A DNA stretch of 33,015 nucleotides, from the NCBI GenBank assembly GCA_018398765.1, contig JAHBMJ010000601.1:11398-44412 (forward strand), written 5' to 3'. Positions 8,346 through 33,015 of this stretch are shown here, one piece after another. The notes under the pieces were generated by a model, which made no database searches, was not told where the DNA came from, and saw only the letters and a list, made by a program, of their open reading frames with translations. Every line of letters begins with the position of its first letter. Position 1 is the stretch's first letter. The position numbers and the translations under genes are program-made. This DNA comes from Chromera velia (lineage: Eukaryota > Sar > Chromeraceae).

Positions 8346-8770
8346 CGACTTCGCTTCTTGTTACAGAACTCTCTGCAAAGAAAATGGAAAGAGTGCAAAT
8401 ACATCTCAGACAATGAGATACTTCATCTAACTTCATCAAAGGGTTAAACGATGGGGTGGTGAGGGTGACTTTACAGGTGAAGGCGCATGACTCCTTAATT
8501 CCAGGGCTTCATACAGGAGGCTAAGCGTTGCCTCTCTGTTGTGACCCCTTTTACATATGAAGTTGTATCTTTAGGATATAAGGAAGAAAAGGCAGGAGGG
8601 AGAAATGAGAACTTAGACAGCAATCACCATCGATTCGAACCCGCCTCCAACCACCTCCATCAGGAAGGAACCTAACCCTAAACTGACAAATCACATGAGT
8701 CATATCAGCTTTCCTTTCAGGCCACCCTTGAGCCCTTCTATGGAAACGAAGCCGTAACCATATAGCCAAC

Positions 8771-9466
8771 ATGAGAGCAGGAACCATAAAAAGCAGAATG
8801 GAGTGCGATCGGTATGGGGGAAATTGTCTTCATACTCCAGAGGGATGCACGGTCGCCTTTAACATCAAGTGCAACTACTGCCATCAAAAAGGGCACATCC
8901 GGGCAGCCTGTAGAGCACTGAAACGGGATCAAAGACTGCGGAAAAGAGAAAGAAACGAAAAAAAAGAGCCCACACGGGACTATCAGAGAAGGAATGAAGC
9001 CCATCTTTATCTGAGCTTCCGCCCCAGAGACTACTGGGCCTGGCTTTTCGATAGTTTGCGAAGAAGAGAAGGCCTCTGCCTGCCCAGCCATCGGCCCGCT
9101 TCCCACAACCTGCCCAGCGAGGCAACCTTAACAACCGGAGAGGACCGAGACCAGAATATCCTGTCCGCGCACCGTTTCAGCCCACAGGAGGAAACCACAG
9201 TCTTTTCCCTTTCCCTCCACTCCTGCAGAGTAAAAGATAGGGCGCTTGTAGAAGCGGGGCAACCTGGGCTGATTGGAAAGTGCACATACTGTCACACCTA
9301 CATGGATGATCTACTGGTATTCTTGAAAATTTTTCAGGAACACCTCCTACATGTAAAGGAGAATTTGGAGCGTCTAAAGAAAATAGGAATCTGCCTATTA
9401 AGTAAACTTCAGGAAGTGCGCTGTTGCATGAAGGGAGATGACATACATCGAGTGCATGATCAATGA
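8771..9466 (+). pseudogene. Nucleocapsid zinc knuckle joined to the RT motif C region
   Basis: A 231-codon open frame that joins two distant parts of a Gypsy polyprotein. Residues about 34-47 form a CCHC zinc knuckle (CNYCHQKGHIRAAC, 8870-8911), the nucleic-acid binding finger of gag. Residues about 177-216 contain YMDDLLVFLK (YMDD at 9299-9310) followed by EHLLHVKENLERLKKIG, the RT catalytic motif C and thumb start. Normally the protease and RT motifs 1 to B, about 1 kb, lie between; they are absent. An internal deletion is the simplest explanation. The frame is open but cannot encode a working RT. Confidence 0.8.
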
Positions 9467-10526: not shown

Positions 10527-11336
10527 TCTGAAAGATAGACACAAACATCTTATTAGCGGACACATTAGACTAGAAAGAATAATCCAATCACTGTCAGAGA
10601 AATATTGGTAGGCGGGACTGCATACAGAAGCATATCAGTTCATGCGATCATACAAATAGTATCATAGGAGGAAGAAAGGAAAAGCTAGGGGAATATCAGT
10701 ATGAACCACAAATTTTAACAGACGCACCACTTGAGAGTTTCTGTAATGACTTGATTGGCCCGCTGTGCCTGACGGAAGACAGAAAGCGCTTTATTCTCTC
10801 TATTATATGCACGATGAGCCGCTACCTTTCTTTGGTCCCCCTCCAAAACCAAAAGACCGAGACCATCGCAAGAGCACTCATAGAGAACCTCATTTGCGTA
10901 TACGGGGCACCACTGAAATTGCAATCAGACAGGGAAACAAACTTGCCCGAGCCAGTCATCCAGAGCATCAACGATCTCTGTCACTTAAAAAGAGTGATCA
11001 GCTTATATCAGCTCAGTTTTTGTACCTATTACAAATAGCCAAATCGAGAGAATCAATGCAGACATCAACACAGTCTGCCTGTTTTTATCAAGGAAGCAAA
11101 AAAAACGTGGGATTGGTACGTCAAGTTTACAGTATGGACACACAACAGCACTTACTAGAGCTAGATTAGTCAAACACCATACAAACTCGCATATTGAAAA
11201 AAACCAGCCAACCCTTTTCGTCTTCTTTCTGGCCTGACAGAAGACAAATCTCGCCGACTACGTACAGGTACTGGCTGATTTGCGAAAAGAAAACAAAGTT
11301 AAACATGCAGCAGTATTTGCTTTTTCAACTGATGGG
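10527..11336 (+). pseudogene. Integrase, zinc finger and catalytic core (broken)
   Basis: KHLISGHIRLERIIQSLSEKYW (about 10538-10610) is the N-terminal HHCC zinc-binding region, with the second half mutated. The core begins LESFCNDLIGPL (about 10732), where the Asp is the first catalytic residue, and includes LQSDRETN (about 10920) with the second; the third acidic residue is unclear. ADYVQVLADLRKENKVKHAAV (about 11257-11320) is the linker preceding the C-terminal domain. The open part at 10751-11038 is only a fragment. The sequence stops at the inverted repeat starting at 11337. Confidence 0.8.
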
Positions 11337-11882: not shown

Positions 11883-12654
11883 ATAGGGGTGTAAAATCTC
11901 TTTTGGATGGGGAGGGAGGACCCCGTCGGCGGGGCAGGCAGGAGCCTGCCCGACGGGGGGGGCCCGTCCTTCGGACGGGGCCGCAGAGCGCGAACGGGGG
12001 GGGGAACCTGTCGGATCGAACNNNNNNNNNNNNNNNNNNNNNNNNNNNNNNNNNNNNNNNNNNNNNNNNNNNNNNNNNNNNNNNNNNNNNNNNNNNNNNN
12101 NNNNNNNNNNNNNNNNNNNNGGGGGGGGGGGCGCGTGGAGTTCGTGTGCGCAATCAAAATTAATTTTTCGAGTCTGTTACTGAATGATTCACCTGCCCCG
12201 CCATGCCCTGCCTTCTGTGAACAGTCGCTTTCTTGTATGGTTGTTCTGTTTTCTCTTGCCTTACACGGCTGCTGACTGTGATGCTCTCACACCACTCACT
12301 GCTGCTGATTCTGCTGCTCAAGCCCGGACCCCATTGAGATCGCTGATCCGTTGCCGACCATTAATTGTTTCTGTTCAGAAACAGATAAATGCCCCCCTTC
12401 TCTCTAACTTTCTGTTCTGGGTTTTCAGAAGTTTAAGTATGTTTTAAGTTAGAGTTGAGAATAGTTTAGGCTTCATGAAGGTCATCTAGATTGTCTTCAT
12501 GACTTAGCACTTTTTCTTACCTAGAGCTCTCTGAACGGGGGGGTCCCCGTTCACAGGGGTCTGATCTCCCTAGAGCTTAAACGGGGGAGACCCCGTCAGA
12601 TCTGGAGTCCTAAGAGCTCGAACGCACCCCTCCCCCCCGTTCTTACACCCCTAT
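11883..12654. mobile_element. hAT-like non-autonomous element with 8-bp target duplication
   Basis: Terminal inverted repeats ATAGGGGTGTAA (11883-11894) and TTACACCCCTAT (12643-12654) match perfectly over 12 bases. They are flanked by AAGTTCAT (11875-11882) and AAGTTAAT (12655-12662), an 8-bp target duplication with one mismatch. Eight-base duplications and TAGGG-type ends are typical of hAT transposons. The interior has no transposase. Both subterminal regions are very GC-rich with strong hairpins, such as CCCGTCC-TTC-GGACGGG near 11967, and the gap falls in the middle. Confidence 0.75.
12022..12120. other. Assembly gap (99 N)
   Basis: Run of N flanked by G-runs and GC-rich hairpins of the hAT-like element. 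The gap size is probably arbitrary, so the element length of 772 bp is uncertain. Confidence 1.
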
Positions 12655-15722: not shown

Positions 15723-16040
15723 TCAATTTATTATAGATCCTGGTCTGAGATCTTGGCACCTCCGCCTGCCTCTGATAAAGCCTCTGGAAGTTTTTTTCCA
15801 TGTCTTGATAGGCCTGGAGAGTCTGTTCCGCTTCTTCTTGTAGATATGGTCGTACGAAGACCATGCTCGCTCCGCATAGCCAGACGTGTTGGCCTGGCTG
15901 AACACAATCTCAGCCAGTTTGGCGTTCTTTGGGGCGCACTCAATCATATCGTCCATTTCCCACCAAGAGAGGGAGTCAATGTTGGCGGAGATCTTTGTGA
16001 GCTTCTCCAAAATCCGTGCCTCCTTGACCATCTTCATGAG
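15723..16040 (-). pseudogene. hAT transposase C-terminal (dimerisation) remnant
   Basis: The minus strand reads DSLSWWEMDD (WW at about 15960-15965), NAKLAEIVFSQANTSGYAER, then AWSSYDHIYKKKRNRLS. This follows the hAT family dimerisation signature WW....(P).L..La..ilsq...s...ER.WS.y..Ih.kkRNRL. After RNRL the frame is lost; other frames continue with YLQEEAEQTLQAYQDMEKNF. Upstream, the catalytic part of the transposase is not recognisable. It lies just beyond the Gypsy remnant and is opposite in strand. The hAT-like short elements elsewhere in the window could have been mobilised by relatives of this enzyme, but their ends cannot be linked to it from this sequence. Confidence 0.65.
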
Positions 16041-16142
16041 CAGCAGCAGCGAGCGGTGGATCCGGACGTCCGATGACGGATGGATGGGGAGGGACCAGTA
16101 TGAGCTGCTGGGTAATCTGGGTGTCGTTGCCAACGGGAATTC

Positions 16143-16480
16143 GTGGCGTGCCCCAACACCGGAAAGTGCTGGTTTGTGTTCCTGCAGTCCTTTCAAGCAT
16201 ATGCGCAGAAAAGTTTCTTGTTGGGGACCTTCTTAAGGAACATGAAGCGGAGCTTCGACGGTCCCTCCAACCCCCTCCTCATCCATGTGAGGCATGGTCT
16301 ATACCTTCTTGTGGGTCAAGCGGGCAAGATGTGCACACACTGTGGTGACGTGTCGGCCTTGATGATGCGGTGTGCTGGGTACAATTATATCCGTTACTGT
16401 TCGAGGAGGTGCTAGAAGAAAGACTGGTCCCGCTTCCATCGTGCGGTGTGCCCTGTCCTCCAGAGGGCATTGGCTGACTG
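16143..16480 (+). pseudogene. MYND-type zinc finger fragment, broken
   Basis: The plus strand reads KMCTHCGDVSALMMRCAGY, then NYIRYCSRRC, a TAG at 16413-16415, then KKDWSRFHRAVCPVL. This is the MYND pattern C..C...RC..C....YCS..CQ..DW..H...C (16332-16451) with two defects: the fourth Cys is Tyr (TAC for TGC) and the conserved Gln after YCSxxC is a stop (TAG for CAG). Both are single transitions. MYND fingers bind proline-rich peptides and occur in many chromatin and signalling proteins. Upstream in frame is AQKSFLLGTFLRNMKRSF, unassigned. The hAT remnant is on the opposite strand just to the left. Confidence 0.65.
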
Positions 16481-29710: not shown

Positions 29711-30158
29711 TTGCTCAACCACTTGTATTGTTCGCTTTCTGAATCTAGTAACGATAATTGACTGTATATTGCTGGCTGTACTGATATGAAATATGACGGA
29801 ATGCGACGTTCATTAGGACCTAGGCGCCGCACATAGAAAAAAAAAAAATGCATTGATCAATTGTATTTTCTGACGTCCATGCACCCTGTCAGACGTTTGC
29901 GGAGTATCAGCTTTCAACATCCTCTGCAGGAAGCGAAAAGATTGAACGGTTTCGATCCAAAGGGCCTGCATGCGAATTGTTGAAATCATAGGCAAAGTAC
30001 ACATTAATCTCGGATGGCCCATGCATGCTAACTCACACAAATGCATGCCAATGCTACAAAAACAAATGCATGGCAGGCTGCGGACGAAAGCAAAACAGCG
30101 GCGCATGGCGCACGCCCGCCCTTCACCATGCGCCAACCAATATAAAATTGCAGCCGCC
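29711..30158. other. Region downstream of the GIY-YIG/RT frame; no supported gene
   Basis: Would be the 3' end of the minus-strand retroelement, but its boundary is not visible: no T-run on the plus strand directly follows, and no target duplication can be paired without the left part of the element. Several ATGCATG words lie near 30020-30070. Confidence 0.4.
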
Positions 30159-33015
30159 CTAAGTGCAGCTATAAAACTCAAATTTTCTCCTTCAAAACCA
30201 ATCGCGAAGGTGACCAAGACTGGCTGCTAAAAGTAAACCAAAAGTGATGCGATGGATGTCATGCAAAAGAAAACCGCACTCCTGCAATTCTTTCCAAACA
30301 CCACATAAAACTACAACAAACAAAGAATCAGAACATAATGAAAAAAGAAACGCATGCAAAATATGAGAACGCAAAGTGTCAAGAAGACTATGTGCAGGAA
30401 CAGCTGATTGTGCATGAGCATAGCAAAGAAGAGGAAGAGGAGCTTTCACTCTACTAGCTAGCAAAGAAACACGACAGCGATTGGGGTCCTTTGGCAACAA
30501 AAACAAGCGGGTACAGCAGTCGCATGGACGAAGCTCAAACTGCAGAAAAGTGTCCAAGTTTTGCTCCTCAAACACACATTCAACAGCATAAAAATCCTCC
30601 CTGCGAAGACTTGTACATATGTGATCTTTTTCTAAAGCAAAGGGAAGGCGAGCAACCAGGAGCCAATCATCTATCCATCTTCGCACCACACGCGTACTGC
30701 CCGAGAAGGAGCTAATCCCCTGGGCTGTGGCCCAATCACGTTCGACCAAAGCCGCACTTCTATTCGTAAGGGCCGGTGACAGAGGAGAGCCTTGTGCAAA
30801 CCCCTGCCGCTGCCACACATGACGATTCCCAATAGCTACAAAGCAGGTCGCAAAGTCCAATTTCACAAAATCCAGAATTTCGTCAAAAGAAAGTGCCCAT
30901 GCATTCTGGAATCGGCCGTGTGTTGAAAGAAAAGCTGTAGGCCGAGTGTGACCCTTGGGCGTCCACTTTCTCCCTCCTCTCCCCATGATTGTGGCAGAAT
31001 GAATCCGAACACCTCCAACAGAAGAAAAAGGCAATACCAAAAAAGAATACCGACGAGATGCATGAAGCTCATCAAACACACAAGAAAGTAAATGAAGAAC
31101 CAATGCTCGGGGAATTGAAGGATAAAAGTTCTTAATGTCCTCGACATGAACGAAGATCTGACTAAAATGCGAAACAGACGGTAACATCCTTCCCTGAACA
31201 GCAGTAAAATGGGCGCATTCAATATCTCCTGACCCCTCATTAAATTTTCCGATGTCTCACATAGAAGTAAACGGTGAAAACAAGGTCGCATGCGGACTTA
31301 AAGTGGAAAGCAATCCATTCAACAACCGACATACAATCGAAAAGGGCTTTCTCCATGCGTGCCTCGCATACAACACCAGTGGGCGCCACTTCAGTTCAGA
31401 AAGCTGTTTAGGGTGCCCGTCTCTAAACGATTTTGCTTTCAGCCACACAATCCCTTGCCCAAATGCATAACACCCACGAGACTTTCTTCCCATTTTCTCC
31501 CCTAACTCCCCAATCCCTTTTCCTTTTCCAAAGAGCTTTTCTACTGCTTCTTCTTCCATCAACTGAGTACACAAGACATAGTCAAGATTCTTTACGAATA
31601 AATTTTTCACTGCATTTGCATAAACCTGAGGACACACAAAGAAAAGGTCCCCTCCTGACCGATCCAGCTGCCCAATGACTAATTTACTACGCAAGTCTCT
31701 CACCACTGCTCTAGGTGGCACAGAGCAGAACCTCCAGGCCTGAGCTATAAAGAACAAAGAATTGCTAAGGCAGTACGTTAATTCTTTCTTCCATTCACGT
31801 TTCCTTTCTCCTCCTTCCTCCCTCCACTTCCGTCCCCACACCCTCGATCAAGCAAGCCTTTGGCTAAGTGTTGCTACTATACGGTTAGCGACCTCATTTA
31901 TTAAAGGAATAAAACGAGATCGAGAGTTCCAATTCTTGGGAGTCGCAAACAGGCGCTGCAAACCAGAGGCTGTCGATCACTTATCCACCACATGCCCCTC
32001 CACCAGGTGCAACCCGAACCTACGTCCAATGTCTGCACATGTGCACGGAACTAGCAGCAGCTCTCTCTCTGACCAACGTAAGCGCGTAGTTGCCTCTTTC
32101 TCATTTGAAAAGAAATCCCTGAGAGTCGTTCCCTTTTCTGCTCGCAAACGAAGAAACACCTTCTTTTTCCTTCTTATCCCTGCACCACCTCCCTCCGCTG
32201 CCCCATGCATGAACGAATTAAAAAATGAACGAATTCACAAATGTAATACAACGCGCACAGACTGGAAAGCAAATAAGGGAACGTGAATTTCCTGATACCA
32301 CACTTGCGCTCGGACCAAAGCCCAGTCGAATCCTTTTGCCTTACATAGCCGAGAGAGGTTGCTGATAAAAATAGATCGAAAGAACAAATCCGATGCCACC
32401 CGAAGAAAATGAGAGTATAATGCCACCACGTCCTCAAAAATCAACGATGTCTTTTTGAGCTGAGACGTTGGTCGGGCCTTACGGGCCAACCAAGCGTAAA
32501 ACCACGTGCGGAACCAGTGTACCCCTGCCCCATGCCTTACTCTCAGGCGATCTGCTTCCTCCTTGAATTGATTTCTCTGAGCTGTCTGAATGTTGCCACC
32601 AGATAACAACGAAAAAAGACCGAAGGGAAGAAAAGAACGCACCCCTTTCCCCGCTCCCGTCTTTCCGCGAATATTCAGGCTCGGTCTTATCGCATCAATC
32701 AGATGTAGCTCTACCGCATGCAATAAATGTTTATTCAAGTCCCCCCCCCCTGTCCAAATCCGACAAACAGGCAGCATGATGAATTCATGTAAAGTCCTTT
32801 GATTCATGACTTCGTATAAGTCCCCCCCCGCCCCCTTCCTGGCCTTGCTGGTCCTTTTCCGATCTCCCTTTGCAACTGTCACATGCCCATCCCATCTCAG
32901 TGATGGTACTGCTTAGGTTGAACCAAGATACAAACCATGCCGGAATGGAGAGAAAATAAGATATATGATGCCCCCCTCTGGTTCCATCAGCCCCTCTTGT
33001 ACTCTTTCCCCGTAT
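30159..33015 (-). pseudogene. Retroelement ORF: N-terminal GIY-YIG endonuclease fused to a reverse transcriptase (partial, six in-frame stops)
   Basis: One minus-strand frame from the window edge to TAG at 30159-30161, about 950 codons. Residues 15-34 read GIIYLIFSPFRHGLYLGST, the GIY and YIG motifs; Arg and His follow (SLRWDGH) and AVELHLIDAIRPSLN (about residue 100) supplies the usual Glu and Asn. After a basic linker, KLVIGQLDRSGGDLFFVCP and KWRPLVLYARHAWRKPF resemble RT finger motifs. Motif A is VEDIKNFYPSI (Asp 626, 31137-31139), motif B QGFAQGSPLSPALTN (about 737-751), motif C RWIDDWLL (DD at 30666-30671). A Cys cluster CDCC lies in the thumb. The family copies RNA to DNA after the nuclease nicks the target. 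Stops: TAA 32913; TGA 32235, 31977, 31848, 31257 and 30192. No frameshift seen. The order matches permuted Penelope-like elements (Naiad/Chlamys); the exact lineage is uncertain. The start lies outside the window. Confidence 0.85.

Follow-up and report, generated by a model that had tools for sequence, protein, structure and literature searches.

In a permuted group of Penelope-like elements, which comprises Naiad and Chlamys and was reportedly described by Craig and colleagues in 2021, a GIY-YIG endonuclease stands on the N-terminal side of the reverse transcriptase (RT). Members of this group are said to have a CxC linker, pseudo-LTRs and an insertion in the RT fingers (IFD) and to be without a hammerhead, and the endonuclease of Chlamys is reportedly also without a CCHH cluster. 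Chlamys elements are known from green algae, and permuted Penelope-like elements have an insertion bias for microsatellites. Like the elements analyzed here, canonical Penelope and Poseidon elements combine GIY-YIG with RT and display pseudo-LTRs and 5'-truncated copies, but their GIY-YIG domain is C-terminal. Pseudo-LTRs have been described for Penelope-like elements (PMC11167929, PMC3846280). In the model outlined for the Poseidon element of Anolis, the protein binds the RNA of its own element, cleaves AT-rich DNA and begins reverse transcription at that site, the later steps being presented as unsettled (PMC11167929). An older rule divides Penelope-like elements into those with a single, endonuclease-bearing ORF and those with two ORFs and no endonuclease (as stated in PMC6431247). 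A table in a paper on Ectocarpus lists PLE/Chlamys with a 3 in its first column, taken here as the number of families, and a statement in the same paper holds that Penelope-like elements had not previously been reported in TSAR (PMC12477816).

The window, that is, the whole stretch of 33,015 nucleotides of Chromera velia DNA analyzed here, carries a GIY-YIG nuclease, a CxC linker and an RT in this order in a single frame on the minus strand (33014-30192). The earlier note had placed both domains in one frame with GIY-YIG at the N-terminal side, and all motifs were indeed located there. The frame comprises 940 codons and a final TGA stop at 30194-30192, and it is interrupted by five internal stop codons, a TAA at 32915 and TGA at 32237, 31979, 31850 and 31259. 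No frameshift separates the GIY-YIG and RT motifs, and over 33014-30192 the coding frame contains 6 stop codons vs 31 to 43 in each of the five other frames. The endonuclease domain extends over 32673-32972, with the motifs GIIYLI (32972-32955), LYLGST (32933-32916), R..H (32903-32883), E (32720-32697) and N (32687-32673); the in-frame TAA (32913-32915) falls within this domain. In the linker, the CxC motif (32045-32037) is followed by EGHV (together 31989-32045), and a QLDRSGGD stretch ahead of RT motif A (31647-31670) can be aligned in all families of relatives described below. The longest open stretch (30192-31256) holds RT motif A, DIKNFYPSI (31113-31139), motif B, QGSPLSP (30774-30794), motif C, RWIDDW (30663-30680), and the thumb with its CDCC cluster (30513-30524). 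All of these features lie on the minus strand, as does the 3' untranslated tail (29848-30191).

The extent of the element differs from the span of 30159-33015 first proposed for it. Based on the limit of the sequence common to other copies, after which the flanks are unrelated, its 3' end lies at about 29848. The 5' part is missing because the contig stops at the last base of the window. Hence, the decayed copy occupies 29848-33015 on the minus strand, with 93-95% DNA identity to other copies. It is inactivated, and its protein is no longer made.

Profile searches of the frame, as suggested in the earlier note, recovered both domains, though below curated cut-offs. At E up to 1, Pfam gave GIY-YIG with E 0.026 and 15.2 bits (cut-off 22.6) and RVT_1 with E 0.0072 and 16.5 bits (cut-off 29.6); no other family was matched, and two of the four window pieces had no match at this threshold. 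For the relatives, GIY-YIG was matched in three of four family segments (best E 5.8e-4, under the curated cut-off) and RVT_1 in 5 of the 13 RTs searched (best E 2.2e-4), and five of the nine longer frames were without any Pfam match at E up to 0.1. Against NCBIfam, a frame of family D gave a weak match to a group I intron endonuclease (E 0.035), and the sole match of the nuclease frame of L015, a family A copy, was unrelated (E 0.079). The GIY-YIG alignment profile found zero PDB chains at E up to 10, and a PDB search with the 844-residue L020 frame likewise gave no match. Across the four family segments, the nuclease residues Y (of GIY), Y and G (of YIG), R, H, E and N never vary; the first G of GIY is present in families A and D only, as GxxY. 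We accept the GIY-YIG and RT domains as real because these nuclease residues are invariant in four families.

The RT motifs A and B could be aligned with RTs in PDB by profile search. These RT profiles gave weak matches to group II-like, GsI-IIC and retron RTs and to no chain named telomerase at E up to 10, and group II and retron RTs were also what the RTs matched in NCBIfam. In seven relatives and in the window copy, motifs A and B are 112-115 residues apart, compared with about 62 residues, taken from the profile alignment, in the group II-like RT 9d4s_A. This long spacing would fit an insertion in the RT fingers. The telomerase RNA-binding domain PF12009 was not detected in the host genome in a search in which the controls also gave no signal. 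Single-sequence structure models of the GIY-YIG region and the RT of the window copy were unusable (pLDDT 41.2 and 32.2).

A protein search of the host genome gave at least 116 RT matches (115 of 277 candidates scored), which merged into at least 107 RT places. Among them were full-length relatives (e.g. L033 and L034); the earlier note had proposed a search for full-length, intact copies. A match to the GIY-YIG side, defined as matches to L015 1403-2152 or L029 954-2333, both containing the nuclease domain and some rows being partial, lay on the same strand and no more than 2.5 kb upstream of the RT in 51 of the 107 places. Unlike in canonical Penelope and Poseidon elements, it was downstream, within the same distance, in none of the 107. 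This count rests on all 168 GIY-YIG-side rows and bears out the permuted order that had been claimed for the element. The gap between the GIY-YIG side and the RT was 1079-2094 bases, with a median of 1237 (51 places). In one further place the GIY-YIG-side match was on the opposite strand, and for the remaining 55 places none was listed, which may reflect 5' truncation and the search's own limits. No relatives were confirmed in IMG/VR or in GTDB contigs. The host genome also gave 58 matches to light-harvesting proteins, and the one compared with PDB (L011) was closest to chains with names such as LHCI, XLH, FCPI and ACPI, which suggests a plastid of the red type. A RuBisCO large subunit was not detected in it, nor was a 20-base 18S pattern.

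Judged from fetched members only, the relatives were sorted into four families. Family A includes the window copy, and its fetched copies had 93-96% DNA identity; family B had about 40-48% protein identity to family A, and families C and D 29-34%. Family D comprises at least three subfamilies, D1, D2 and D3. The domain order and the linker were the same in families with RT identity down to 29-34%.

Common to the families are a CxxC..CxC cluster, GIY-YIG, a conserved linker stretch, CxC followed by [ED]GH, a DRS/DKA/DRA..GD motif and the RT motifs. The CxxC..CxC cluster lies upstream of GIY-YIG and was found in all four families: in family A in L013 and L041, with partial loss in L040 and L043, and further in L019 (B), L024 (C), L028 and L029 (D1), L036 (D2) and L037 (D3). 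Each of A, B, C, D1, D2 and D3 includes one or more copies with the linker CxC, and L003, L019, L021 and L027 have lost one of its cysteines. The linker of roughly 280 residues, previously read as a mark of divergence, is conserved and has the CxC that would be expected. Motif C reads RW[MI]DD in A and B (decayed copies excepted); the C copy examined has RWIDN, and copies of D have RYMDD. Of the two Trp in motif C of the window copy, the one preceding IDD is common to A, B and C (with a stop there in one A copy; Tyr in D). The final one, a trait likewise offered as divergence, is private to the window copy, as the seven other family A copies read at this site have Arg after DD (contigs C1767, C2165, C2084, C3429, C3708, C3833, C2759). 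The thumb cluster, also read as divergence, is present, but as CxCC it occurs in families A and B only. By eye, no CCHH cluster was seen in the aligned endonucleases of families A, B and C, and a single Cys pair lies in this region of the D segment.

The ends of the copies were informative on how they arose. Ten distinct family A copies (14 rows) had the same 3' end followed by unrelated flanks, and the 5' ends varied between copies. The D1 copies L033 and L034 were 94.6% identical across 6140 bases, and in both the 3' tail was repeated ahead of the coding part (332 bp at 96.4% in L033, 339 bp at 95.3% in L034). The junction between the 3' end and the 5' region was identical in L033, L034 and L026, and a different one was found in L037 and L038. 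Within each of the pairs L033/L034 and L037/L038 the outer flanks were unlike, and L026 begins at a contig end. In family C, L039 also had a tail match upstream, and in family B, L019 had a 574-base repeat at 97.9%. These repeats are pseudo-LTRs as known for Penelope-like elements, and the relatives that carry them belong to families B, C and D. None was seen in family A, and the window copy itself is without its 5' end.

The hammerhead that the Anolis Poseidon element bears (PMC11167929, PMC3846280) was not found in the host loci. Ten loci gave zero Rfam matches at gathering score, with models that may miss minimal forms of the hammerhead, and none of the eight Rfam matches in these loci at E up to 5 was a hammerhead. 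The 3' ends of the family B copy L019 (at 998 and 4999) carry a short palindrome, CTCTAG-CCTC-CTAGAG. By eye, no clear target-site duplication was seen in 12 junction pairs, and only L021 has a 10-base word on both sides. The 5' flank of L027 resembles by eye a LINE protein in its C-terminal portion. Apparent tandem copies in L017 (near 4448) and L028 (near 2960, both in element orientation) were rejected as likely scaffold artefacts, given 100% and 99.9% identity between the repeats that flank one undetermined base. A 2086-residue frame on C3383 was likewise set aside, as it passes through N.

By analogy with Penelope-like elements, the protein of an active relative would bind its own RNA, its GIY-YIG domain would nick DNA, and its RT would copy the element RNA starting at the nick. 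Copying that stops early would leave 5'-truncated copies, and a partial copy placed head-to-tail ahead of a full copy would give a pseudo-LTR. The common 3' ends and truncated 5' ends in the host genome agree with this mode of copying.

In copies of D1, D2, D3 and C, a frame of 310 to 546 codons that is open or close to it (0 to 3 stops) lies between the pseudo-LTR and ORF2, the frame with the endonuclease and RT. The ORF1 of D1 and that of D2 are homologous, with 43% across 192 residues at E 2.6e-41, the best of the reversed controls reaching E 0.27. The match of D3 to D1 was weak (E 0.004) and the frame at the ORF1 position in C gave nothing significant; homology of the C and D3 frames to the ORF1 of D1/D2 could not be demonstrated. 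No Pfam family was found for ORF1 (L033-L038), one match at E 0.16 being disregarded. L019, the only full B copy, has about 400 bases at the ORF1 position and no clear ORF1, and in family A no ORF1 was seen in four fetched 5' regions of possibly incomplete copies (L040-L043), the longest shared stretch there extending 477 bases from the inner piece end. A literature search whose scope left out the original Naiad/Chlamys description gave no report of a two-ORF permuted element. The upstream ORF1 of D1/D2 and the CxxC..CxC cluster ahead of GIY-YIG in four families are possibly novel.

The substitutions in family A point to how the copies decay. Of the changes private to one of six copies (window 29848-33015, L013-L016, L018), 237 of 272 were C>T or G>A, with rates of 7.2% at CG, 4.8% at CA, 2.1% at CC and 2.2% at CT. 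Such a bias, strongest at CG with CA next, suggests methylation or a RIP-like process. The final Trp of motif C in the window copy is most likely part of the same decay. Differences between pairs including the window copy were not enriched at third codon positions, as for copies decaying without selection. Other repeat remnants occur elsewhere in the window: LTR-type retroelement-like fragments on the plus strand (8732-9466 and 10583-11038), comprising a zinc finger with an RT end (RVT_1, E 0.0033) as well as an integrase core (rve, E 2.3e-4) and scoring under the curated cut-offs throughout, and a hAT transposase C-terminal dimerisation region on the minus strand (15723-16232, E 3.2e-7, above the cut-off). 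A run of 99 N occupies 12022-12120.

Taken together, the constant order in families A to D, the CxC linker, the pseudo-LTRs and the lack of a detected hammerhead fit the permuted Penelope-like class. The window feature is very probably a 5'-incomplete, inactivated copy of such a retrotransposon, with N-terminal GIY-YIG, CxC linker and RT. The broken state of the copy and the other repeat fragments in the window might suggest that GIY-YIG and RT pieces of two unrelated elements came to lie side by side by chance; this reading, to which we give next to no weight, is refuted by the order and gap kept at 51 of 107 places and by the location of both domains in the same frame. The earlier note had also considered that a different kind of RT, group II-like or LINE-like, separately captured a GIY-YIG domain and so converged on Penelope-like elements. 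The matches in PDB and NCBIfam are to group II-like and retron RTs and not to telomerase, as such a capture would have it, but the CxC linker and the pseudo-LTRs match the permuted class, and the long A-B spacing would fit it. Together with a domain order and linker shared by four families as diverged as these, they make separate capture very unlikely.

Within the permuted class, the elements most likely belong with the Chlamys group, a likeness of described traits rather than of sequence. They share with Chlamys the N-terminal GIY-YIG, the CxC linker followed by RT, the pseudo-LTRs, the lack of a detected hammerhead and an algal host, as well as an endonuclease in which no CCHH was seen in families A, B and C. 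Naiad elements are alike in the permuted order and the CxC linker, but are said to be animal elements whose endonuclease has CCHH. The ORF1 of D1 and D2 and the Cys cluster before GIY-YIG may set them apart from Chlamys, and would be compatible with a distinct deep lineage, sister to Naiad plus Chlamys rather than within Chlamys. We consider this placement, which overlaps with the preferred reading since both lie within the permuted class, rather unlikely, as nothing tested conflicts with Chlamys. The proposal of a new Penelope-like lineage was not upheld, the tested traits fitting the N-terminal-endonuclease group, with Chlamys known from Ectocarpus. The results fit a known kind of element and not a new capture, what is new being the host and its diverged families and, possibly, a variant in the sister families.

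With two ORFs, D1 and D2 resemble the endonuclease-deficient Penelope-like elements described in PMC6431247, which, unlike them, have no endonuclease. Tentatively, the host may contain diverse permuted Penelope-like elements that are partly of a two-ORF type, with an ORF1 and an ORF2 bearing an N-terminal Cys cluster before GIY-YIG. Such endonuclease-bearing elements would have a separate ORF1, possibly nucleic-acid-binding like that of LINEs, and could form a lineage beside Chlamys. In any case, the host, which judging by its light-harvesting proteins probably lies outside the green lineage, adds several highly divergent families to the permuted Penelope-like elements. If the ORF1 of D1/D2 holds up, it would break the rule of one ORF with, or two ORFs without, an endonuclease for Penelope-like elements, and would provide material on the role of a second protein in telomerase-related elements.
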